Shown: piece by piece, positions 3,592-49,381 of the stretch
Layout of the letters: every line of letters starts with the position of its first letter
How positions within the stretch are numbered: the stretch's first letter is position 1
Origin: Mesostigma viride
Taxonomy: Eukaryota; Streptophyta; Mesostigmatophyceae; Mesostigmatales; Mesostigmataceae
Length of the DNA stretch: 64,000 nt
NCBI GenBank assembly: GCA_009746045.1
Contig: RPFO01000027.1
Span: 2,268,202-2,332,201, forward strand
Direction of reading: 5' to 3'
Notes under the pieces: model-generated
Databases searched by the model: none
What the model was told of the DNA's origin: nothing
Seen by the model: the letters and a program-made list of their open reading frames with translations, nothing else
Made by a program: the position numbers and the translations under genes

Positions 3592-4632
3592 AGTACGTAT
3601 CTGTTGCTAGCTAATTTACTAGCTGACCTCATTTATGCCGACGACATCACGCTCATCGAGAAGCCGGAGTCTGCCCAACTTTGGCTGGACTGCCTGGCGC
3701 TCGAGGCTCGGGCGGTTGGTCTAGAAATCAGCCCCAAAACGGAGGCCCTGGCCCTCGGCATGGCAGGGCCCCCACCCACACTCCGCCTCTTAGACGATGC
3801 CGAGGTCAACTACCCTCCTTCAGGCCGCTTCAAGCTGCTCGGCAGTTGGCTTCCCGACTGCGAGGACGACATGACGACACGGATCGGCATGGCGTGGGCG
3901 CACCTCCATGACCACCGCCGCTGGTGGAGCAACCCCCCCCTACCCCGGATCGTCAAGCGTGACCTCTTCAAGGTCGTCATTCTGACGATCCTGACCTACG
4001 GCGCCGAGACGTGGACACTGACGCAGGAGCTGGAGCAACGACTCGACGGCGCCGTCACCAAGATGCTGCGCAAGGCCCTTAACATCCCCTTTGGTTTGCA
4101 CATTAGTAATGAGGATTTGTACGCTGATTTGCCCTATGTTTCCCACATTATTAGGCACAGGCGCCTGGGCCTAGCCGGGCACCTGGCCCGCACAGATCAG
4201 GTAGATACCTCAGATAGACTAGCTGGCACCAAGCCCGCCCAGCCTGGGCGATATGTCCTCACCTGGCGTGCCCCCGGCCGAGCGCGGCAGGGCCGCCACC
4301 CGTGGACTTTTGGTGATAGACTCGGCATGGACATGTGCTACAGTAGACCTGACGGGCTCACCCCCGGGCAGCCTCCTGGTTTGTCTGTAATATGGAGGCA
4401 GATGGTGCGTAAGGATAGATGGCAAGTAGTGATGAAGGAGACCACCCCCAAGCCTGTGGGGGCTCCGCGTGTGACCAAGTATGGCATTCATAGCGATTCG
4501 GGCCGCGGTGCCCACACCCCTGTAACTAGGACCTGGATAGCTTATACCATCCATTCCATCCCATGTTCCCCTCCCACTGAGGACTCATGCTCACGTGACG
4601 CAGTCACGTGTCTATTAATTAATTAATTAATC
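3592..4632 (+). mobile_element. LINE family A copy 3 with intact ORF2 3' part
   Basis: One open frame from 3604 to a stop at 4626 (about 340 residues) encodes the catalytic core onward of a non-LTR reverse transcriptase. LIYADDITLIEKPE contains the YADD active-site motif. It is followed by the thumb-like block (LLGSWLPDCEDDMTTRIGMAW), the YGAETWTL motif typical of these elements, and the C-terminal RRLGLAGHLART region. The 5' part of ORF2 (endonuclease, fingers) is missing. The copy ends in cacgtgacgcagtcacgtg plus (TTAA)n at about 4611-4632. It is probably a dead 5'-truncated insertion whose frame has not yet decayed. Confidence 0.92.
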
Positions 4633-32274: not shown

Positions 32275-32308
32275 ATTCCCTAGCCTAATATGGATTTGTA
32301 CTACAGCA
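32275..32308 (+). repeat. Left terminal inverted repeat
   Basis: 34 bp, starting attccctagcctaatatgga. It pairs with 42,020-42,053 with a single C/G difference near the inner end. Similarity weakens but persists for some tens of bases inward. Confidence 0.88.
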
Positions 32309-32389
32309 CTAGTACAAATTGGTTTTTTTTCAACATTGTTATTTAATGCCTCTCATAGGTCCAAAGCATGGAGGTCAGTGTCCCAACAT

Positions 32390-32780
32390 GTGGTGACACC
32401 GTGACACCGTGACACCGTGACACCGTGACACCGTGACATCACAACACTAGCATTTCACAGTTTGTATGATGTCACATGGTAATGTGACGTTCAGCACTGG
32501 TATCATGATGTCCACATGTAAGCTAAAGCGCTGCCCAACATGACGTGACACCGTGACATCATGACACCGTGACATCGTGACACCGTGACACCGTGACATC
32601 ACAACACTAGCTAGCATTTCACAGTTTGTATGATGTCACAAGGTAATGTGATGTACAGCACTGATATCATGATGTCCACATGTAAGCTGAAGCGCTGCCC
32701 AACATGACGTGACACCGCACGACATCATGACACCGTGACATCGTGACACCGTGACATCGTGACACCGTGACATTGAATCT
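32390..32780. repeat. Left subterminal octamer arrays (GTGACACC)
   Basis: Three clusters of gtgacacc/gtgacatc octamers are separated by two copies of a longer spacer (acactagcatttcacagttt...gatgtccacatgtaagct...), giving a composite period of about 190 bp. The spacer copies are about 95% alike. Confidence 0.92.
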
Positions 32781-33191
32781 TGCTATGTATGGAGATATCG
32801 TTTTTCACTTCTCTAACTTGAGTAATGCAAGCACAAGGCAACATAATTAGTTTTGAACCCCTGAAAAGAAAGAACCTTACATGCCCTACGTCTCAGAACA
32901 CTGTTGCATCATGCATGACACCAGGACACGGTGACAAAGTGGCATGGCACAAGATACAACTGCATTTGACACCAAATATTGATAAGGCTAAACAACTAGC
33001 CTTCATTCCTAAATAGCCATGCATGCATCACATTCTTTACTGAAATATGACATGGATCTACTAAGTCAACCATGCAGTCACATGTGAGTCTCAAACCATT
33101 AAAACAGGTATGCGCATATGTGTATTCCATCTGGGTTTGATGCCCAGGCGCATACCATTAATTAGACAACTAGTCCAAAACAATGCATGTC

Positions 33192-33908
33192 TCACTTAAT
33201 AGTCATCATAATACACATCTTGTTCCAGATTGTTATTTGGTATTTCACCAGACGCCTCCGAGGCACTGCGTCCGATGATGCCTGGTGCAAAACAATAGCA
33301 TTTATAGCACGCAAAACAAGAAAGCAAAACAAGAAAGTTACGTATTTTCTCCGACACCAAACGTCATCGTACCCTCCATGCAGCAGCCTCGTGCAAGCTG
33401 AATTGCATAGAAGCTGCAACTACGATTCTATTCATGAAAGCATACAGGCAGGCAGTCGACATCCCAAGCAGGATAACCCCCCTAAACAACAACCCCTCGC
33501 GGGGGGCGCGTGAAAACGGCAAAGGCAAAGCGGAGCCCGCCGCCTTTGGGCGGGCGGAGCGGAGCCTTTGCCGTTTTCACGCGCCCCCCGCGAGGGGAAT
33601 TTTTTTTTGGAAAATGGGGCAAACCATGGGGGTTTTCTTACGGAATTTACCTGCGATCTTCCTTGCGATGCAGTTTTGCCTGGTCGCTCGCGCTCCCCGT
33701 CCGAACCGCCATCAGAGGCTGCATTAATTCTATTAAGCTCATTCAGCGCGCCCCGGACGTACACGGTTGATTTCTTATCTTTTGGTTGTTCATCTGCCTT
33801 CCCGTCTACAGCAGCGCCATCATCGGCTGTCTCGGCATGCTCTGCACGTTCATCCGAGCCATACTGTTCATGGATTTCTGCCGGCGGCTGCTGTTCGCCG
33901 CTAGCCAT
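33192..33908 (-). CDS. Small three-exon gene of unknown function in the TIR element
   Basis: Exons on the - strand: 33908-33651, 33413-33342 and 33281-33192. All junctions are GT-AG in phase 0, and the last exon ends in TGA, giving 139 residues. The N-terminus is acidic and hydrophilic (MASGEQQPPAEIHEQYGSDE...). Exon 2 is cysteine-containing (LLCNSACTRLLHGGYDDVWC). The C-terminus is basic (VPRRRLVKYQITIWNKM). No family is recognised. It diverges from the DUF7869-like gene with 560 bp between starts, as expected of two genes of one element. The model depends on predicted short exons. Exon 1 is the strongest part. Confidence 0.4.
33493..33597. repeat. 105-bp hairpin with 34-bp perfect arms
   Basis: Arms 33,493-33,526 (cccctcgcggggggcgcgtg...) and 33,564-33,597 are exact reverse complements. 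The 37-bp loop contains a further GC-rich inverted repeat (cccgcc...ggcggg). It lies in intron 1 of the small - strand gene, so its transcript would contain a very stable stem. Confidence 0.95.
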
Positions 33909-34468
33909 CGCAGCTATATCCTATCAAACTCCGCTGTCCTAAAAACACGAACAAACACGAGGGCACGCAAATTATCTACGTCGTGCGTCCAGAAGTACTT
34001 GTCGAGCTTAATCTGTATATTATTTTGCGTTCAAGTTCTCCGGACCTCGTGACATCGGGTGCATGCCTTCGTTCCCGAGGTCGATGTCCCGAGGTCCCGA
34101 GAACTTGCGGCCCAAATTTAGGTGGTGTCCCGAGGTCCCGACACCTGATTGGCCCGTTGAGATTCGCTCAGAATCAAGAGCAATCAATGCGGACCACGAG
34201 TAGCTCGGACCTCGTGACACCACCTCGGGCCAGGCGGGTGCACTTGCACGCCGATATGTATATCGACAACGATGGAAGATTGCATCGGTAAAATGTATTA
34301 GCCGGGTAATAACAACTCGGGCAGACCGGGCTGCAGTTGGAGCCCGTTTTGCCATGTTTAGATTCCACCCCACTGGCGTGGGGACCTACGTTTGCCATCT
34401 GCACACGTAGAAAAGGGGGCGGAAGTGTTATTTAATTTGCACGGGTGCCCAGTGGACATCATAGCCAT
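33909..34468. promoter_or_regulatory. Divergent promoter region inside the TIR element
   Basis: 560 bp between the starts of the two element genes. CCGAGGTC or its complement GACCTCG(G) occurs at least six times between 34,040 and 34,230 (for example 34,075, 34,092, 34,130, 34,208). One GTGACACC octamer, the word that makes up the subterminal arrays, lies at 34,214-34,221. This may be a binding region for an element-encoded protein. Nothing proves function. Confidence 0.5.
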
Positions 34469-37400
34469 GGCGAGGTCCACAGTTTTCATGGACCCCGGCC
34501 CAGGGGCGCTGGGTTGGCAGATTTTGGCAGCGTTTGTCTTGCTGCTAATCCTGGGATACGTCGTTTTAACCACCATGGCGAGGCGGGGCGTCCGGTTGTC
34601 TGCTGCTGCCGTGTTAGAGAAATGCACCTCGGATGCGTCCCTGAATGCGGCACTTAGCAGGGACTGGGATTGTGATTGTGGTCGGCATTGTTTGAGAAGC
34701 GTGCATAGGGAGGAAGTACGTGCAATGAGAACTGACTTGTGGAGAAAGACGCAGGCGGATAGGAAAGACTTTATCAGAACCCAACTTAGAATGGGCGGTC
34801 AGAGAGAAGAAGAAATTCCGGGAAGCTTCCGTCACAAACGCAGTCGAGACGAGGATTTTCTTTTCGCAGTGGAGGGCTACGTTGTTTACCCGGCTACCAA
34901 GCATAATCCAGAGTCGACAGCCCCCTTTCGGCATCGCATGTGTGAAGCTGCTTTCCGCCGTGCTTTGTATATCAACCCCAATATTTGGCAGACGGCTGTA
35001 AAGGAGGCAACCCGCCCCGCCCCTTCACCTGGCACTCGTCGGGATGTGGAATCCGGCTTGGGTAGCACTGCTGGACGGCGTGTTCGAGGATCCCGTTCAA
35101 TATCTGCCAGGATTGGGGAGGCCAAAGCGCTTTGTGAGCTATATGGATTCGGCGTTGGTTACGCCCAGCAGTTGAGAAAGATCCTCGAGATGGCCGCAGC
35201 ATTCTTGAGCAACCCTGCAAGAAGACTTTGTACTCGGAGTATGTTAGGGAGAGACAAGATTACAATGCACCTGTGGTTAGTATTTCGCTTTTCAGGACAA
35301 TCTTCAAAGCAGTGGCGACAATCATGGAAGTCCATGTTGAGCGTTTTCGCACAAAGGTTATGGGTGAATGTTCCCGCTGTCGAAAGCTGAAGGATGCCAT
35401 TTTGTTTTACCGGACCACTGACCGGGCCAGGTGGGAGGCCAGTAAGGAGAAGTTAGCTGATCACACTGATTTCTTTAATGGGGAGCGGATGGCTTATCTG
35501 CAGCGAAGGTTCGAAGGCGCCAAGCATTTTTTTGTTTCCATAGTCATGGATGGTTTGGCAAAGATGAAGACAGCGGTTCCAACGAGGGGGAGCGCCTCGA
35601 AAGAGTGGCTTAGCAGCCGCCAGCTTCATATACCGTACCAGTTAGTCTGCTCTATTTTGCACGGGGTGAGGACGTATTTTTGGGTCATCATGCCATGGGT
35701 AGCTAATTCTGAGGTTTCTGGTAATTCAGGGCGCGTCACGGCAACAGTGCTCACGCATCAGTTGTTGGAAGTGGTTGTTGAGCGTCCATGGGAGAAGTCC
35801 ACTGATCCTGAGATTCGTGAGTTTGGCCTTGCCCCTAACCTCGTCCTTCAAGTGGATGGGGGTGGGGACAACATGAACAACGAGTTGTTGGGGTTCCTAG
35901 CTGTTCTCATTGTCCGCCGCCTCTTTGCTCGCATCAGGGTGTGCCGGCTTCCACCGGGACACACACACAATGATGCTGACCAAAGGTTTGGTTGGTTCAT
36001 CCGGTGGTACAACGGCATCAAGAACCGTGTGTCAGATCTTCCACCGGTGCTGATGCTGACGTTTCAAGACGTGCTGCAGGGGCTGAAGCGTGCCTTTGCA
36101 CATTTCTACGACGACGGCCCTTCTGGGAGCACGGCGATCATCAGTCCACTGCCACCATCTTCCAAGGTTCGTTTGTCTTCATAGATTTATGTTGCCATAG
36201 TGGATGAGTGCATTGCCAGTGTGTTGGTAGGCGGGGCATGTAGTCATGGGGATGCGCGCGCGCGGCACGGTGGGGGGAGCGCGTGGCGGCCAGTTTTTTA
36301 TGCTATTCATGGGGATGCGCGCGCGCGGCACGGTGGGGGGAGCGCGTGGCGGCCAGTTTTTTATGCTATTCATGGGGATGCGCGCGCGCGGCACGGTGGG
36401 GGGAGCGCGTGGCGGCCAGTTTTTTATGCTAGTCATGGGGATGCGCGCGCGCGGCACGGTGGGGGGAGCGCGTGGCGGCCAGTTTTTTATGCTATGTAGC
36501 TGCAGAGTTGAATCACAATTTTCTGCTTACTTGTCTTTTACTGCTACCGTATGTGCGTTTCCTTTCGCGGCTACTGTGTCCTTTTGCAGCTGATCAACGC
36601 AGCGCTGGACTTCACCACGTGGCTACGTGGCTGCGTGGACCCAGACCTTGGGCGCTGGGTCAAGTCCGCTGATGTTGTTGTGGACGCGTCAACCAATCAA
36701 CCCGTGATCGAGCGTCATCCGGTCAGCAAGATATTCGATATCGAGTTGTTTGGCCATCGAGCTGCAGACGACGGACCGGATGTTGGTGATGACTGCTATT
36801 TCCGCTACCGCCTTGCCACGGCGGAGGCCTTAACGGATGTGCCCGCCAATTGGTGGAGGCCTCTTGGGCCGAACGGGGAGGCCTGCGACATGGTCAGCGT
36901 CAACTCGAGGCGCGCGAGTGATGGCAAACAGCTTTTTGGCGCGCTGGTCATGGAGGCAGCCAAGGCATGCACCCAAGGGCAGCCCGGGTCTCGCTGCTTT
37001 CGCCGATTGGGATGGCGATCACGCAATCCGCTCTCACTGCTCTAAACTCAGTCGGCAGTTTAATTCCAGACGTCATGACGGAGGAAAAGCAAGCAGAGCT
37101 CAACGACGAGATCCGCGGCTTTCCCACTGACCCAGCGCAAGTAGAAGAGTGCGCGTCGGTGTTTGACGTCATGATCCAGAAGCTGACAGAGTGCAGGGAG
37201 CAGCAAAAGGACAAGCCCCTCCCTTTCCGTCTCCATTCTGCAGGGGATCAGGCGATCATGCGGGCTACCCGTGCCCTGGAAGCGCCGCTGCATCCAATTG
37301 TCACCCACGCTGGCGACCGCCGGCACGAAGTGCATGCTGCCATTCAGCGGGCGCGACGCGCGGCTGAGCAGCTGCCTGCCGCCCCTGCCCACCCTGCCGC

Positions 37401-38283
37401 CCTGGCCGCCCCTGCCGCCTCTACCGCTTCTGCCGCACATGCCACGCCTGTGGTCGCCTCCAATCTGCCTGCAGATGCCAGCGGTGGTGCCCGGACTACT
37501 GCGACCTCGGACCGGATTTTTACGGTAAATCCCGGCATCATCTCCCACGGCGATCTGCTTATCGTCAAGAGGCCTGCAGTAACGTGCGGGGATGGCATGC
37601 CGTGGCCAGAAGAGATTCTGGTAAAAGTCACGGATGCATCTACAGTGCGTGCATGCGGGACTCTGACAGTTTCTGTGTATTATTCACCCTCCTGGGAAGG
37701 GCAGTTTAGCAAGCTCGTACTCGCCGGTGGTGGGCCGGGCCTGGTAGTGCCGGCGTCAGATATCATTGTTCAACACTGGACAGTTGGTGCAACAGGGCAG
37801 GCTGTCCACACTCCCACGCTTACAGCAACACGGAAACTGTCTGGTGCAACCCTCCAGGCTTTGCGAGACCATCCACATGTGCACTTTGCCGGATTTAAAA
37901 CACAGCAAGCTGCCGCCGCGACATCCAAAGCTGCATGTGCGGCATACTTTGCTGAGCACGGTCTGCAGGCGCTAGAAGGGAGGAGGCTTTGTGCGTTGTG
38001 GGGTGCTTCCAAGACCCGTTTTCATGGGTGGGTCGTAGGAGTGGATGAGAGTGATGGGAAGGTGAAGATTGAGACAATGTGGTCTGACGGCAAGGGGGCT
38101 TCATACACCTCCTTGGAGGAAGTATTGAGTTTCATATGCGGGTGCCCGCATGCGGCTCGTGCCTTTGGCCGTGCGAAGTTTTTTCAGGATGACACCGCAG
38201 GCGGTGTCGGGACGGAGCGGGATGTGCCGCCCGATGCTTCTACTAGTGAGAGTAGTGATGATGAAAGTGATGAGGATGAGTGA
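34469..38283 (+). CDS. DUF7869-like (transposase-like) protein, multi-exon
   Basis: Exon 1 runs from ATG 34469 to somewhere between 35,080 and 35,134. The next runs from about 35,169 to 36166, then 36590-36987 and 37059-38283 (TGA). The last two junctions are GT-AG with matching phase (71-bp intron 36,988-37,058). The N-terminus has a hydrophobic helix (WQILAAFVLLLILGYVV), then CDCGRHC and EEVRAMRTDLW typical of the family's zinc-binding start. The core has a CSRCRKLKD zinc motif (35,371), VSIVMDGLAKMKT (about 35,538), NLVLQVDGGGDNMNNELLGF (about 35,840) and RLPPGHTHNDADQRF (about 35,945). The three Asp-containing motifs are the likely RNase H-like active site. The C-terminus is A/P-rich with an acidic end (ESSDDESDEDE). 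An alternative upstream ATG is at 34392. The family name is from memory of its motifs. A transposase role is inferred. Confidence 0.75.
36244..36497. repeat. 63-bp tandem repeat, 4 copies, in an intron of the DUF7869-like gene
   Basis: Units start at 36,244, 36,307, 36,370 and 36,433 and are almost identical. Each has gatgcgcgcgcgcggcacgg, an alternating purine-pyrimidine tract, then ggtggggggagcgcgtggcg and gccagttttttatgct. It lies in the intron 36,167-36,589. Confidence 0.95.
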
Positions 38284-41200
38284 GGGGGCGTGGGACTGAT
38301 ATTAAGGGGAGGTGGCACCCCAAAAACCTTAAAATTTGACCCATGCTAATATCACTTGAAATTCATTTGCACAATGCTGAGTTATGATTGGGGGCACTAA
38401 ATAACATCTCTAGTGAGTTGTCCATGCACTTGTTGGGGGTACTACCCCCATATATACGCCAATAATGCGCTATAAATAGCAAAAGACGCTAATTAGGGCT
38501 GGGTATGCCCCAGCCAATTCACTTATTTGTTGGCTACCAAAAATCAAGGTCATATAGTTCCCTGAGTTTGTAGCTTGCTGAGCTATTTACATCATGGAAA
38601 TGGCAAAACCTTGAACAGTTATTAATTTTCCCGCAAAACAGGTCATTTTTTACCGGACATTGGGAATAAACATGTCATAAACACTTCCGATAAGGCCACA
38701 AAATCAACAAAAATTCCGGCTAACAGGGGGACAGCGGTGTTCCAAGTCCCAGGTCATTCCGACAAGTCTAGCTCAAGTTATTGCGTCAGACGTGTTTTCA
38801 GAAAAATGCCCGCTAAAACAGAAAATGTCACTATATCAGCCCTTGTAAGCATCCTGCACAAGGCAGGCAGGGCAAAACCAATCCCCCTTGGGCTTCTTAG
38901 TCAACGGGGGGTCAGCGCAGCACCCATGCAGTCCTCCCTTGCACCCGAATGTGCTGCACAGCAGGAAAGGACACCGTCAATTTCATCGGGGACGCACATG
39001 CAAGGCAAGGAATATCATCACATCATTCTCATCATCACTACTACCTTCCCCATCGTCCTCCTGCCCCTCCCTTTGCATCACGTCGTGGCAGCCACCCTTA
39101 AAACAGGTCATTCCGACAAGTCTAGCTCAAGTAATAAGGTTATGCGTGCTAAAACCTGAACATAAGCTTAAGGGGGGTTTTCTTTGTATACATGGCCACT
39201 TAGGCATGATGTTTTCCATCCAAAAAGCCAGAAAGCATGCCCCACTCGATCACAAAACATAAGCAAACGGCTAGGCACCACATCTGCCCTCACCTGCCCT
39301 CGGCATGGCCAACCTTGCCAGCGCAAGCATAGCAACACGATCGCTAGGCATACATGCCAAGAGAGCATACACTATACTCTACCCAAGGTTACCTTGTAAA
39401 CATCATGCCAAGAACTCAGCAAATCTATGATCAAAAGCACATATAATTAACTCTAGCACACTGATGACGACACATGCTCAAGGTTGGGGGTCACTGTGGC
39501 ACGCACAGATGGGTTTCCTAGACGACCACTCACCACCTGACAAGGCGCTAAGGACCACTCAGAAAGCAAGTAAACACAATCACACTTTACATGCCATCAA
39601 CATGGATCAAATCCATGCTGAATATGTTATGAAGTACAAAGGGGTGGCCACGCACCTCATACTCCTTCACCGTCCCTCGAGCATGGCCAGCCTTATAAGT
39701 ACGCGAATAGCAATTATGATGATGGCACTAACATGCATTACCAGCATTCTCTATGTTTCTCCCAGGTTAGAGTGTAAGGGTTATGCCAACCAAGCTTACC
39801 AACACAGCAACAACTCCTTAACTGCCCTACCCGACATGGGCAACAAACTGGAACTATGGAGGGCAAGGAACCAAGGAGATCATGGCATACAAAGCTTGCA
39901 TGCAGTCAACCATGTCAACCATGGTTGGCTCAGCACATTGCTGTCTTGTCACATCATCATAACAAGGAAAGCTCAAGTAAACCAATGATGGCAGCTATCT
40001 ACATGCAGTCACACAAATGCAATATCTCCAACATGATCGTCGATAAAAAAACTTCCTTCCCTGCACGATAAAGTGCAAAGAAACCAGTGGCGGCCGTTCA
40101 GCTTCTGACCGCTGTGATGCCGCTGCGAGGAAAGGGTGCGTCACTATCACACAACAAGAAGCGTCCATACGCACAACATCCTTGCCAGAACACGTGCTAT
40201 GAAATCCCTTACGCCTTCCCTAGGATCTATCGGTTGAGACTGAAGCGGATTTGATCAAGACATCAACGAAAAGAAGCTAAAGCTGCCAGGTATTCGTCAA
40301 CACGACGGCGAGCAACGGAGAGTTAACTGGCGGAAACTGACCAAAACGAACGCAAAAAACTTCGAACGATGAGCTCTTCGAAGAAAGAACTGATAGTAGA
40401 TAACAGTCGCCACAAATCTATACCTTGCCCTCGTAGATCCCTCGCCCAGGCGCGCAACAACTGCCGTTCTTCCATGGAAGGTTCCGACATGCACTGCGCA
40501 GGCCTCAAGAAATACTTACCGAGAATGGCCGAAAATGTAGCAAAAAGCACCCGTTCGGTTTAGAATTCGATGCTACCGATATGAATGCATCCTTCACGGT
40601 CAAAAAGACCCCCAAAACAGAGAATTTACTGCCGCAATCACGAATTCTATTTTATTCCGCGCGACCAAAAAATGCAGATTACCCCCCATGCCGACGGCAG
40701 TAAAAGAAAGCAGCGGTATTGTAAACCAGCCACTTGCCGCCGCAACCCAACATCATTAAATCATCGTCTTCAACATCCAAGCATTTTTTTTGCATTTCTC
40801 TAGCCCTACATTGCTAGTTTCGCCTAAACGCAGTCGCCATGGCCACTTCCGCAAGTGGTGCGCGCACGGAGCACCCACTTTTCACGGTACGGCCGGTGCC
40901 GCGAATTTTTTCGCGCGGAAAATATTCGGCGCGCCACGTCCCCTTAAGTTAGACAATTATATCTGTCCATGTGACAGTGTGCAAGGGTGCATAACAATCA
41001 GTGCATGGCTGGTTATCGCGAGGTCATGTTTTGCCTGGCATGGTCCCTCTAATGATGACTCTATGTCATAAATGTCCCTCACTATAACGACTCAATGAGA
41101 ATGTGTTATAATTTTTCATTTTAAGTTAGACATGTATGATGTCAATGAGGCACCCATGAATATACTTAGTTGTCTCTTTTATACAGTCACATGATGTGTT

Positions 41201-41369
41201 CCCACGTACCATGCTGAAATAAATTATGTGCATGCTTAAATATTGTCAAGGCAAGCAGCAATTAATAAACGCTTAGCTGCAATTTGTGAATGCTTACATG
41301 TGTATAGTTAGACAACTACAATGTCAATACAATTCTGCAAAGATGTGTCTTTACATGCAATATGAGGCG
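38284..41369. other. 3-kb right arm of the TIR element, no firm gene
   Basis: catgccgacaag-like words recur: aggtcattccgacaagtcta gctcaagt occurs at 38,751 and 39,107. Open frames on + (38,737-39,159; 39,464-39,988) are low in domain character. On -, 40,563-40,300 could be a spliced small gene (gtaagt donor near 40,520, reading SMEERQLLRAWARDLRGQ), but no start or full phase set can be defended. 40,840-40,960 holds short GC hairpins. Confidence 0.5.
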
Positions 41370-41935
41370 CCATGGTGGTGTCACGGTGTCACGGTGTCAC
41401 GGTGTCACGGTGTCACGGTGTCACGGTGTCACGGAGTCACGGTGTCCAGGTCATCTAGGGCAACCTTGTCATTATCAAATAGACATATAATCCCCATTAC
41501 TTAATCACTAAATGTGCAAAGATGTGTGTTTACATGCAATATGAGGCGCCATGGTGGTGTCACGGTGTCACGGTGTCACGGTGTCACGGTGTCACGGAGT
41601 CACGGTGTCCAGGTCATCTAGGGCAACCTTGTCATTATCAAATAGACATATAATCCCCATTACTTAATCACTAAATGTGCAAAGATGTGTGTTTACATGC
41701 AATATGAGGCGCCATGGTGGTGTCACGGTGTCACGGTGTCACGGTGTCACGGTGTCACGGTGTCACGGTGTCACGTTGTCCAGGTCATCTAGGGCAACCT
41801 TGTCATCATCAAATAGACATATAATCCCCATTACTTAATCACTAAATGTGCAAAGATGTGTGTTTACATGCAATATGAGGCGCCATGGTGGTGTCACGGT
41901 GTCACGGTGTCACGGTGTCACGGTGTCACAGGTCC
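41370..41935. repeat. Right subterminal octamer arrays (GGTGTCAC)
   Basis: Four composite units of about 165-180 bp. Each is a spacer (gtgcaaagatgtgtgtttac atgcaatatgaggcgccatg) followed by 4 to 7 GGTGTCAC octamers and caggtcatctagggcaacct. The octamer is the reverse complement of the one at the left end, but the spacers differ. Confidence 0.92.
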
Positions 41936-42019
41936 TATGAACTTCCCCTTCCTCAAAGACTTTAGTTGAGATGTTAGATGCATAGAAATGCAACTTTGAA
42001 AAATGAAGTACAAATGGCG

Positions 42020-42053
42020 TGCTCTAGTACAAATCCATATTAGGCTAGGGAAT
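42020..42053 (-). repeat. Right terminal inverted repeat
   Basis: The reverse complement of 32,275-32,308 (reads ...tccatattaggctagggaat on +). Outside it, ttcacctgctctcatgacag leads into the CATT array. Confidence 0.88.
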
Positions 42054-43226: not shown

Positions 43227-45180
43227 AATTAATTAATTAGACTCGTGCTCCCGTTGGGGAGTCACGGAGCATTAACCCCGATGGATGGATGGATGGGTGC
43301 AAACAGTCCTACCGGTCTAATCTATCTACATCGGCTACATACTATATCTTTCTAACAGCATTCTAACGACAACATCTATCTAGGCAGCCGCACGCTGCCC
43401 TAGGGGAGCTATCTGGCGTGCCTCCCACGGGATTGCACACGCGGGCGCTTCCCCACTGGGGGGGGCTCGTTGTCCTCTATGACCTGGGCCCACTTGGCCT
43501 TGTCCATCATCTTCTTCCAAATCACAGAGAGGCCTAGGCCCCCCATGTCCTCTACTAGCTGTTCTTTGAAGGTGCGGGCCTTGCGGCGTCTAACATCACT
43601 GGGCCCAGCCCACGTCAGGAGGTGCCGGCCAGGCTGGGCTGGTCGCAGTCCTGCGGGGGGGCCACGTGAGGTGTCTACCTGGTTGGTGCGAGCTAGATGC
43701 CCTACTAGCTGCAGCCTGCAGGCGTCGTTGCTTAATGGTGCTGGTGATATAGGGCATGCCCTGGTACAGGTCCTCATTGCGGACATGAGCAGCATATCCT
43801 ACTCTGAAAATGGAACGCAGCATGCTGGTGACCGCGCCGTCCAGCTTGCGGGCCAGGTCGGCGGTGAGGGTCCACGTCTCGGCCCCATACGTGAGAACAG
43901 GAAGGACGAGGACCTCAAGTGAACAGGTCCTGTTTCTCAATCTTGCCCAGGGGCTTGCGCCACAGGGCCCGGTACTGGCGTAAAGTGTGCCAGGCGAGGG
44001 AGATGCGATGGTCCACATCGACCTCGCAGCTGGGGAGCAGGCTGCCTAGCAGCTTAACGCGGTCCCGATACAGGACTCGAGAGCCGTCTAGGAGATAGAG
44101 GGGCGGCGGTGAGTTGGTGAGCCCAACCGCCAGGGCCTCTGTCTTCTTGCTGACCTCAAGCCCCACTGCACGGGCCTCGAGAGCCAGGCAGTCAAGCCAT
44201 GTCTGCACGTGCTCAGTGTCCTCGAAGAGGGTGGTGTCGTCTGCGTAGATGATGACTGCCAGCCGAATCTCCGTGTCCGCACCGCCATGCCAGAATTTGT
44301 TAGCAACCTGCACTCCTGGTTCCCTGCCCACGATGCGGGCAAATCGCTTGCGCGCCTGAATCATTACGTATTCGACAACAATAATGAACAGGTAGGGCGA
44401 CAGCACGCAGCCCTGCCACACACCCTTCTGTAAAGGGCATGGGGGCGTGGTCCCGTAAGAAGTGCGCACCGAAGTGGTGGACCCTTCATACAGGTTGCGG
44501 ATGACAGCAATCAGGGGGCGGGGGATCCGGAACAACTCGAGGATGTCCCAAAGCGCATGCAGGCCAGAAAACCGAATCGAAGGCTTTGATGAAGTCCACC
44601 AGCACAAGGTGCAAAGGGGACTCACCAGGCTGAAGGCGTTGCAGTTCCTCCACCAGTCGGCGAGTAGCGAAGAGCGCCTGTACTGTGTTGCGACCTGAAC
44701 GGAAGCCGTGCTGAGTCTCGCTGAGGTGACCGTCCAGGGCCGTGCGCGGCCGGTTCAGGATGAGCCGCATAAGAAGCTTGAGGGGGGCACTTTGAATGCA
44801 TACCCCTCTGTAGTTGCCGGGGTCGGCAGGCGACCCCTTGTTCTTGTACAGCATCGTGCGAAAACTGTGTTGCCAGGCCGCAGGAGGTGGTTGCGACGAC
44901 AGCAGAAGGCGGTTGCAGATGTCCCGGAAGAGCAGCATAACACCTGTGTCCTCGAATTCGGCTGCAAGTTTTACAACTGCCGAGTCTATCACGAAAAGTC
45001 CACAGGTGGCGTTGATGAAGTCCATGGACCAGCACAAGGTGCAGAGGGGACTCACCAGGCTGAAGGCGGTGCAGTTCTTCCACAAGGCGGCGAGTAGCGA
45101 AGAGCGCTTGTACTCTGTTGCGGCCTGGACGGATGCCGTGCTGATACAACCATGCAATACCACAGGTAGGCTGACGCATA
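43227..45180 (-). mobile_element. LINE family C copy, degenerate ORF2 with internal duplication
   Basis: On -, from 45,163 down: DTGVMLLFRDICNRLLLSSQ, KNKGSPADPGNYRGVCIQSA, GFRSGRNTVQALFATRRLVE, VLVDFIKAFDSVFW, QKGVWQGCVLSPYLFIIVVE, IIYADDTTLFEDTEHVQTWL (YADD at about 44,245), LLGSLLPSCEVDVDHRISLA, YGAETWTLTADLARKLDGAV, VGHLARTNQVDT, VIWKKMMDKAKWAQVIEDNE. Frames shift near 44,600, 43,920 and 43,790. The RT block at 44,590-44,710 is repeated at 45,005-45,145. The 3' end (gggagcacgagtctaattaa) and (TTAA)n tail lie at 43,225-43,245. Confidence 0.9.
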
Positions 45181-48193: not shown

Positions 48194-49381
48194 TCAGAGG
48201 GGTGCGCCCACGCCCCCCTCGCCCTTTCCCAGCACCGCCTGCCCTTGCGCCCCCTCGCTGGCCGCCAACTGGCGCTGCCTGGCCCCCCAGAACTCGCTTC
48301 TTTCCTCCGCCACCCGCCGCACCTCCGCCCCAGTGACGTCTGCCAGGCCGGCGAGGAAAGACGTCACCCGCGCCTCCGGGTTGGCCCCCAGGGATCCTGG
48401 CGATGCGGCGGTCCCCAGGTCCTCCTGCGCTGCGCCGTGCTGGTAGCGGAGCACCGCATAGGCGAGATGGTAGAAGGAGAAGTCGGGCCACATGACGGGG
48501 AGGAAGGCGAGCACGGCACGGGACGACTGCCAGAGCAAGAAATCGCTCAGCCGTGTCTCGCCAGAGGTGCGGACGAGCAGGTCGACGGGGGGACAGCTGT
48601 CAGTGCGGAGGCAGGCGGTGAAGAGGGAAGGGTCGACGTCGGACGTGTCCAGCTGGCGTGACGCCACGCCGGCAACCAGGAGGTTTGCGGCGCGCGCCAT
48701 CTCGTCTCGTGACGTGTACGAGAAGCAGATGTTGACGACGAGCGAGGTGCCGCCGGCGCTGGATTCCATGAGCTGCGCCGCCTTGCGCTGGAGGCCAAGG
48801 GGGGCCAGGGACAGGTCGCCGACCACGCGCACACGGACGCCTTTCTGGGCCAGGCTGGGGGAGCGGAGTAGGTAGTCGAGCTTGTCCTCGGCGAGCCGCA
48901 TGAGGTAGTCGATCTCGTCTTTGGACCGTTTGAAGTTGTCGATGCTGAACGCGTAGACGCTCATGTAGCCGACGCCCAGCGCGAGCAGCCAGTCAATCGT
49001 GCGCTCCATGGAGGCGAACCCGCGGAGGTGACCCTCCAGCCGGCTCATCTTGTGCGCGTCCGCGTAGCGTCGGTTGCCGTCCATGATGATGGCGATGTGC
49101 GACGGGATGCGGCCGGCGCGCAGTACCCACGAGATGGAGGAGATCATGATGGCGTCCAACCCTTTTCCTATCCATTTCAGGGAGAAGGCCATGCTTGTGA
49201 AGTTGATAGCGCGAGCACCGCCTATCAGGGGTTGCTTAAATGCACCACGCGAGGGGTCCGATCTCACGCCGGCCCCTTTGTGCCACCTTCGAATGCAACC
49301 AGAAGAAACCGCCACCCGCCGCCCGTGGACACCACCCGCGGCCCGTGGACACCACCGTGGCACCGCGTGCAGGCTGGCCAC
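48194..49381 (-). CDS. DHDDS: cis-prenyltransferase, dehydrodolichyl diphosphate synthase type
   Basis: A single exon of 395 residues. Conserved regions in order: HIAIIMDGNRRYAD (residues 95-108; Asp101 is the catalytic Mg-binding position), GHLRGFASM, YMSVYAFSIDNFKRSKDEID (139-157), VNICFSYTSRDEMARA (216-231) and DLLVRTSGETRLSDFLLWQS (267-286), then FLPVMWPDFSFYHLAYAVL. The RTSGE-RLSDFLLWQ form is that of eukaryotic DHDDS rather than the bacterial or plastid enzymes. It elongates farnesyl diphosphate with isopentenyl diphosphate at the ER to make the dolichol precursor for glycosylation. Residues 1-63 before MAFSLKWIGKGLD are low in conservation. An internal start there, or an organelle leader, is possible. 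The C-terminal 70 residues are A/G/E-rich. The gene diverges from the giant gene at 50,538. Confidence 0.93.
   Translation of the reverse strand: MASLHAVPRWCPRAAGGVHGRRVAVSSGCIRRWHKGAGVRSDPSRGAFKQPLIGGARAINFTSMAFSLKWIGKGLDAIMISSISWVLRAGRIPSHIAIIMDGNRRYADAHKMSRLEGHLRGFASMERTIDWLLALGVGYMSVYAFSIDNFKRSKDEIDYLMRLAEDKLDYLLRSPSLAQKGVRVRVVGDLSLAPLGLQRKAAQLMESSAGGTSLVVNICFSYTSRDEMARAANLLVAGVASRQLDTSDVDPSLFTACLRTDSCPPVDLLVRTSGETRLSDFLLWQSSRAVLAFLPVMWPDFSFYHLAYAVLRYQHGAAQEDLGTAASPGSLGANPEARVTSFLAGLADVTGAEVRRVAEERSEFWGARQRQLAASEGAQGQAVLGKGEGGVGAPL

Follow-up and report, generated by a model that had tools for sequence, protein, structure and literature searches.

A transposon with terminal inverted repeats built around a DUF7869 gene, a probable DDD transposase, in Mesostigma viride

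The window copy and its genes

The window, a stretch of 64,000 nucleotides from the genome of Mesostigma viride, contains a pair of terminal inverted repeats (TIRs) that bound subterminal octamer arrays, a DUF7869 gene, the remnant of a divergent second gene (gene 2) and a nested repeat (Table 1). An earlier note, made from the sequence alone, described a 9.8-kb unit between 34-bp TIRs with one mismatch. The bounded unit is present but its length is inflated by the nested element, which is unrelated. An inverted repeat is also present, with 34/35 identity between 32275-32309 and 42019-42053, but TIR-bearing ends read in other copies begin CCCTAG. The true TIRs are therefore 32278-32309 and 42019-42050, and the outer ATT/AAT of the repeat pair is flanking sequence. 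The window copy has no 3-bp target-site duplication, ATT preceding and AAT following it; these flanks (32275-32277 and 42051-42053) form an inverted, not a direct, 3-bp repeat. The mirror orientation reported for the octamer arrays was confirmed by counting, GTGACACC occurring 11 times and GGTGTCAC not at all in the left 600 bp, GTGACACC not at all and GGTGTCAC 24 times in the right 800 bp, and the region between these ends containing one and none, respectively. The C1413 copy has 11 octamers within 1.9 kb of its left end, and a type II copy (described below) has 30 within 2.7 kb of its right end.

Table 1. Features of the DUF7869 element in the window
Feature	Position	Strand	Remarks
Whole defective window copy	32278..42050	+	9773 bp; ~7.13 kb excluding the nested element
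Left terminal inverted repeat, CCCTAGCC...	32278..32309	+	31/32 identical to right repeat
Left subterminal octamer arrays (GTGACACC)	32393..32772	+	3 blocks
Remnant of divergent gene 2	33239..33908	-	First ATG at 33908
Giant hairpin inside gene 2 remnant	33493..33597		Presumed intron
DUF7869 gene, exon 1	34467..36166	+	Frame broken once (near 35.14 kb)
Asp 1 of putative triad (MDGLAK)	35549..35551	+	7-row alignment
Asp 2 of putative triad (QVDGGGDN)	35855..35857	+	Invariant in 7/7 rows
Asp 3 candidates (GHTHNDADQ)	35972..35980	+	38 or 40 residues past Asp 2 in 7/7 rows
Intron with 63-bp minisatellite	36167..36589	+	4 units; C1413 has one fewer
DUF7869 gene, exon 2, C-terminal region	36590..38283	+	Frame broken twice (near 36.97 and 37.06 kb)
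Unrelated nested repeat	38302..40947		TTAA, body 38306-40943, TTAA; foreign to the DUF7869 element
Right subterminal octamer arrays (GGTGTCAC)	41377..41929	-	4 blocks
Right terminal inverted repeat	42019..42050	-	31/32 identical to left repeat

The frame of the main gene matches PF25273 (DUF7869) with E 7.5e-12 and 45.7 bits against a cut-off of 26, and the three Asp motifs singled out in the earlier note lie in this frame. The gene was described as spliced, which holds for one intron, but comparison with C1413 shows three breaks in the window frame. In C1413 the spliced frame encodes 1127 amino acids and has a single intron. A three-intron gene model was dropped, as this related copy shows that two of the 'introns' are frame breaks.

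A divergent frame is present, as previously described, but it is not a small gene; comparison with C1413, C777 and C224 identifies it as the remnant of a larger one. The remainder is missing from the window at about 33234-33239, a point at which C1413 and C777 contain ~2.2 kb more and C224 contains 3.9 kb more. In C1413, open frames of 287 and 394 codons lie in the part missing from the window, and gene 2 is related to the divergent frame of FamF, another DUF7869 family of this genome (29% identity, E 6e-20). We regard gene 2 as encoding a putative accessory protein. The giant hairpin was also verified, with a folding energy of -103 kcal/mol for 127 nt at about 33493-33597. The sequence is GC-rich and almost perfectly palindromic. 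A similar sequence appears, in translated form, at the FamD locus L021, and a different form occurs in the C1413 copy, so that the hairpin may be a dispersed repeat.

The nested 2.64-kb repeat is absent from the corresponding copies on C1565 and C1413 and has at least 18 matches at 95–100% identity elsewhere in the genome (39 of 3983 candidates scored). Its ends, GGGG..CCCC, lie between TTAA copies and it is likely a non-autonomous element of the piggyBac type. Thus, the window copy is defective, as its DUF7869 frame is broken three times, most of gene 2 is deleted and a foreign element is nested in it. Elsewhere in the window, reverse-transcriptase-like frames containing the YADD motif of reverse transcriptases are observed at 43915-45163 (-) and 3604-4626 (+), and a frame resembling a cis-prenyltransferase by eye at 48194-49381 (-). 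A relative of the 44.8-kb stretch of the window has another copy of the DUF7869 transposon family inserted in it.

The TIR family in the Mesostigma viride genome

Mesostigma viride is a streptophyte alga whose assembly comprises 440 Mb in 2243 contigs. The whole assembly was scanned with a 26-bp TIR core, allowing up to 3 mismatches, which yielded 77 sites (40 forward, 37 reverse) compared with 0 and 0 for the reversed pattern used as control. Pairing inverted sites less than 15 kb apart gave 34 pairs of 6,814-12,959 bp, with 9 sites unpaired. Flanks were retrieved for 27 of the 34 pairs and in 25 of these the 3 bp preceding CCCTAG recur after CTAGGG, the exceptions being the window copy and C1457. 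Since C737 and C557a represent one insertion on two contigs, this corresponds to 24 of 26 distinct loci. The probability of the observed duplications arising by chance is ~1e-41, assuming one fixed offset and equal base use. The duplicated triplets differ in sequence among copies; at C1413, where the insertion lies within a 6-bp satellite, the match is therefore weak evidence.

Four insertions (C69, C1801b, C1801a and C114) have flanks that match uninterrupted paralogues, empty sites here being related, paralogous loci. The flanks of C69 match 108/110 bases of its paralogue without a gap across the junction. For C1801b and C1801a the matching loci are in the window itself, near 27.5 and 44.8 kb. 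Both alignments have gaps, none closer than 9 bases to the junction, and that of C1801a has one mismatch within the duplicated triplet. C114 was discarded, as its alignment is too gappy. Thus, the search for further copies, target-site duplications and empty sites proposed in the earlier note returned all three. The TIRs form a family, with paired ends at many loci, a duplication of fixed length and related empty sites.

DUF7869 cores at >=98% identity were found 33 times (118 of 567 candidates scored) and 30 of them lie inside a TIR pair, the remaining three being on single-TIR contigs at 1.2, 12.6 and 12.6 kb from the TIR, the latter two farther than in a regular type II copy. Conversely, 30 of the 34 TIR pairs contain such a core. 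The pairs on C1724 and C480 contain diverged core fragments, C777 is a third copy type, an internal deletion of the same element in which most of the DUF7869 gene is gone, and the C680 pair, without a core at this identity, has nearly the same length as C777. TIRs at loci devoid of the gene, which the earlier note named as evidence against the proposal, were thus not seen as such, given 30 of 34 pairs with a core and two with diverged fragments.

The longest regular copy read, in pieces, is that at C1413:2943025-2952075 (9,051 bp), which has two divergent genes. Its left TIR and arrays are followed by gene 2, encoded on the minus strand, and then by the DUF7869 gene, which is interrupted by a single intron. 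Five cores are full length; the first frame is 606 codons in three of them (C1413, C224 and C1579) and only 348 codons in the window and C1565. The other prevalent form, observed in 26 of the 33 near-identical cores, is truncated to a frame of 397-398 codons that retains all three Asp motifs. In C667, the one truncated interior read ('type II'), the core lies between the left 2.0 kb, ~3.3 kb of other DNA and the right end; C737, C557 and C2022 match the first 3 kb of C667 at 99.9-100%. The 2.2-kb part of gene 2 missing from the window is also absent from type II copies. A pN/pS comparison of the cores found only 5 differences among the pairs divergent enough to be listed, too few to inform on selection.

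Window and C1565 are identical at 2201/2201 bases in the stretch compared and, outside the insert, at a rounded 100% (BLAST) in the rest, while their flanks differ. Identity of two broken copies at different flanks suggests that the broken copy moved recently, presumably using the enzyme of an intact copy. Combined, paired TIRs at many copies, 3-bp duplications, related empty sites and shortened derivatives that keep their ends are observed for this element. The view that it is a TIR DNA transposon built around DUF7869 is supported by the TIR copies, the duplications and the empty sites.

DUF7869 families and the putative catalytic core

A Pfam search of the assembly for DUF7869 gave 150 scored matches among 275 candidates, corresponding to several families with many identical scores; open frames in families A-F are 585-1730 codons long. 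Both element ends could be defined for three families, that of the window, FamF and FamE, whereas for families A, B and C the right end alone was seen and for FamD neither end. FamF has a CCCTAC TIR, a length of 8,904 bp and duplications TAT and CTG (2/2 copies), and its protein is 43% and 41% identical to that of the window over exons 1 and 2, respectively, and 53% over the core. FamE has a 30-bp GGGTGG TIR and duplications TTG and TGC (2/2 copies); one-sided hairpin ends were considered for families A, B and E and rejected for FamE, as its left end bears the same 30-bp TIR. Three sets of ends thus go with one kind of gene and one duplication length, 3 bp, which argues that DUF7869 sets the duplication length. 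PF25273 is matched by 7/7 family cores and every other Pfam family by at most one of the seven. The partner genes of families A, C and E (L010:1-1836 (-), L018:695-2077 (-) and L024:1427-2455 (-)) are mutually related; proteins of the gene 2 type from these families have weak PHD-finger-like matches, below cut-off, and that of FamF has none in the same profile search.

Homologue searches with the exon core alone and with the 7-row core alignment found none, and a search with the FamD region returned only EukProt Mesvir1/12432, identical over the 371 residues compared. Among viral contigs, three stretches matched the pattern and none was confirmed by tblastn; a further contig with one motif match showed no DUF7869 frame.

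Asp 1, Asp 2 and the motif GHTHxDxDQxFG (with Q-K/R) are conserved in all rows of the 7-row alignment, at the Asp 2 to Asp 3 spacing given in Table 1. This pattern suggests that DUF7869 is an RNase H-like DDD enzyme with a triad in MDGLAK, DGGGDN and GHTHxDxD. Two AlphaFold models were of low confidence (pLDDT 43.6 and 39.7) and have only a strand-helix-strand arrangement around Asp 2 in common; co-location of the three Asp residues is proposed from sequence only. The PDB, searched by sequence and by profile, gave no match.

Across NCBIfam only two models were matched by the seven rows at E <= 1, an ISAzo13 transposase and an anti-sigma factor. The ISAzo13 model NF033519 is matched by 1/7 rows with E 0.037 and 13.1 bits against a cut-off of 200, the match spanning Asp 2 up to the GHTH motif. 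The anti-sigma factor model scores slightly better (E 0.024, 2/7 rows) and was taken for an unrelated chance match. ISAzo13 was chosen as comparison family because of the NCBIfam match, and was represented by an alignment of nine natural plasmid sequences of ten fetched, L108 being omitted for its disturbed frame. Profile alignment with hhalign of the seven DUF7869 rows against ISAzo13 gave a score of 34.0 (P 6e-4, probability 28%), and 31.2 (probability 16%) in the opposite direction, compared with at most 22.8 for 200 column shuffles and 16.6 and 20.0 for reversed profiles. The similarity is unevenly distributed on both sides. The window and FamF alone score 46.7 (probability 86%), and the alignment without them 27.6; against the four cyanobacterial ISAzo13 rows the score is 19.7, and against the other five 31.1.

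Single-protein controls comprised 50 plasmid proteins, two of them annotated transposases of unstated family. They were drawn from two plasmid stretches, of whose 80 annotated features 51 were used, one of the 51 being ISAzo13. With the window and FamF profile, ISAzo13 entries rank 1-6 (two being the same protein), the control maximum being 21.9, and three cyanobacterial ISAzo13 proteins, at 13.0-21.0, score no higher than controls do. When all seven rows make up the profile, just 2/9 ISAzo13 entries exceed the controls. PF07592 (DDE_Tnp_ISAZ013) had no match in the seven cores at E <= 1 and was matched by 3/3 ISAzo13 proteins at 5e-59 to 2e-147; a search of the genome with PF07592 gave nothing, and control genomes were equally silent. 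Thus, the sequence comparison points, suggestively but unevenly, to a remote similarity between DUF7869 and ISAzo13, mainly from Asp 2 to Asp 3, which is a good lead and not proof.

Comparison with known transposon classes

The interpretation that we consider very probable is that the window contains a defective copy of a TIR transposon and that DUF7869 is its DDD transposase, of a TIR lineage adjacent to Zator. The transposase would recognise the TIRs, and probably the subterminal octamer arrays as well, either alone or with the gene 2 protein, and would cut the element out or copy it out. Joining to the target at sites separated by 3 bp, followed by gap repair, would generate the target-site duplication, and defective copies could be mobilised in trans by the enzyme of intact ones. 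Remote similarity would place the enzyme beside bacterial ISAzo13 and eukaryotic Zator.

It is improbable that DUF7869 is a passenger and that a different protein, such as that of gene 2, mobilises the element. The gene 2 shared by C1413 and, in related form, FamF could provide such a protein, and truncation of most near-identical cores could be read in the same way. However, type II copies are missing the same part of gene 2 (2.2 kb) as the window, and gene 2-type proteins offer only the sub-threshold PHD-finger-like matches of families A, C and E and nothing in FamF, whereas DUF7869 is present throughout three families whose TIRs differ and contains the conserved acidic triad. Assignment to a divergent CACTA/EnSpm (CMC) family is more improbable still. 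CACTA elements have subterminal repeat arrays and more than one gene, features that are found here together with 3-bp duplications. That length falls within the 2 to 5 bp given for the CMCT clade in one study, in which most members have CA..TG termini (PMC12730594), unlike the CCC..GGG of the window family (CCCTAG) and FamF (CCCTAC) or the GGG..CCC of FamE (GGGTGG). In addition, C(2)C, the part of the motif that was scored, is found between Asp 2 and Asp 3 in 0/7 cores, the second Pfam families, each matching at most 1/7 cores, include no transposase, and the CACTA, Harbinger and KDZ Pfam families have no match in the seven cores. PIF/Harbinger elements resemble these in their 3-bp duplication and two genes, but their duplications follow TNA or ANT (PMC12477816), a pattern seen in 1/25 (TNA) and 0/25 (ANT) window-family duplications. 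KDZ elements, described there as large and known from algae and fungi (PMC12477816), are alike in being large elements in algae and differ in duplications of 7 or 8 bp (PMC12730594), compared with 3 bp here.

The DDD transposase reading could also mean, in a version that overlaps it, that these elements are simply Zator, a described superfamily; we consider this unlikely, if less so than the two preceding proposals. Zator is the eukaryotic counterpart of ISAzo13 and both have 3-bp duplications (PMC10045372, PMC5718144), as do the DUF7869 elements, and hhalign aligns the motifs that surround Asp 2 and the third acidic residue with those of ISAzo13. Against this, PF07592 separates the seven cores from all three ISAzo13 proteins, Zator itself being compared by description only; the third acidic residue of DUF7869 is Asp rather than Glu, its frames are as long as given above for families A-F, a divergent second gene is present and the window family has octamer arrays. 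We therefore lean slightly towards DUF7869 being the transposase of a separate eukaryotic DDE/D superfamily, a deep sister of ISAzo13/Zator, whose hallmarks would be CCC/GGG-ended TIRs, 3-bp duplications, D-D(38/40)-D, GHTHxDxDQxFG and a divergent partner gene. No paper of the literature searched, which left Repbase and most subscription papers outside, names DUF7869, nor was a paper on the Mesostigma nuclear genome among the entries listed; the elements may thus already be described under another name or under none.

The DUF7869 family is widespread, and Pfam names it only as a domain of unknown function; the elements described here provide a concrete, putative function for it. Annotations that list DUF7869 genes may count transposon genes as host genes. 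If the separate superfamily is correct, the PF25273 members found in other eukaryotes would be transposases themselves or proteins domesticated from them, and if the link to ISAzo13/Zator holds, DUF7869 would constitute another transposase lineage common to bacteria and eukaryotes. Delimited elements with known ends, target-site length and open-frame copies make the enzymology directly testable.

Two further groups of sequences were noted in the assembly. A sister DUF7869 family, with a core 86-88% identical to that of the window (for example C224:2622804, C446:4900646 and C1912:6240922), has many copies and open frames of ~580-586 codons. A large family has CCCTGCC.. left and CCCTACC..AAG right ends ~8.4 kb apart, as at C1:9638256 with C1:9646625.
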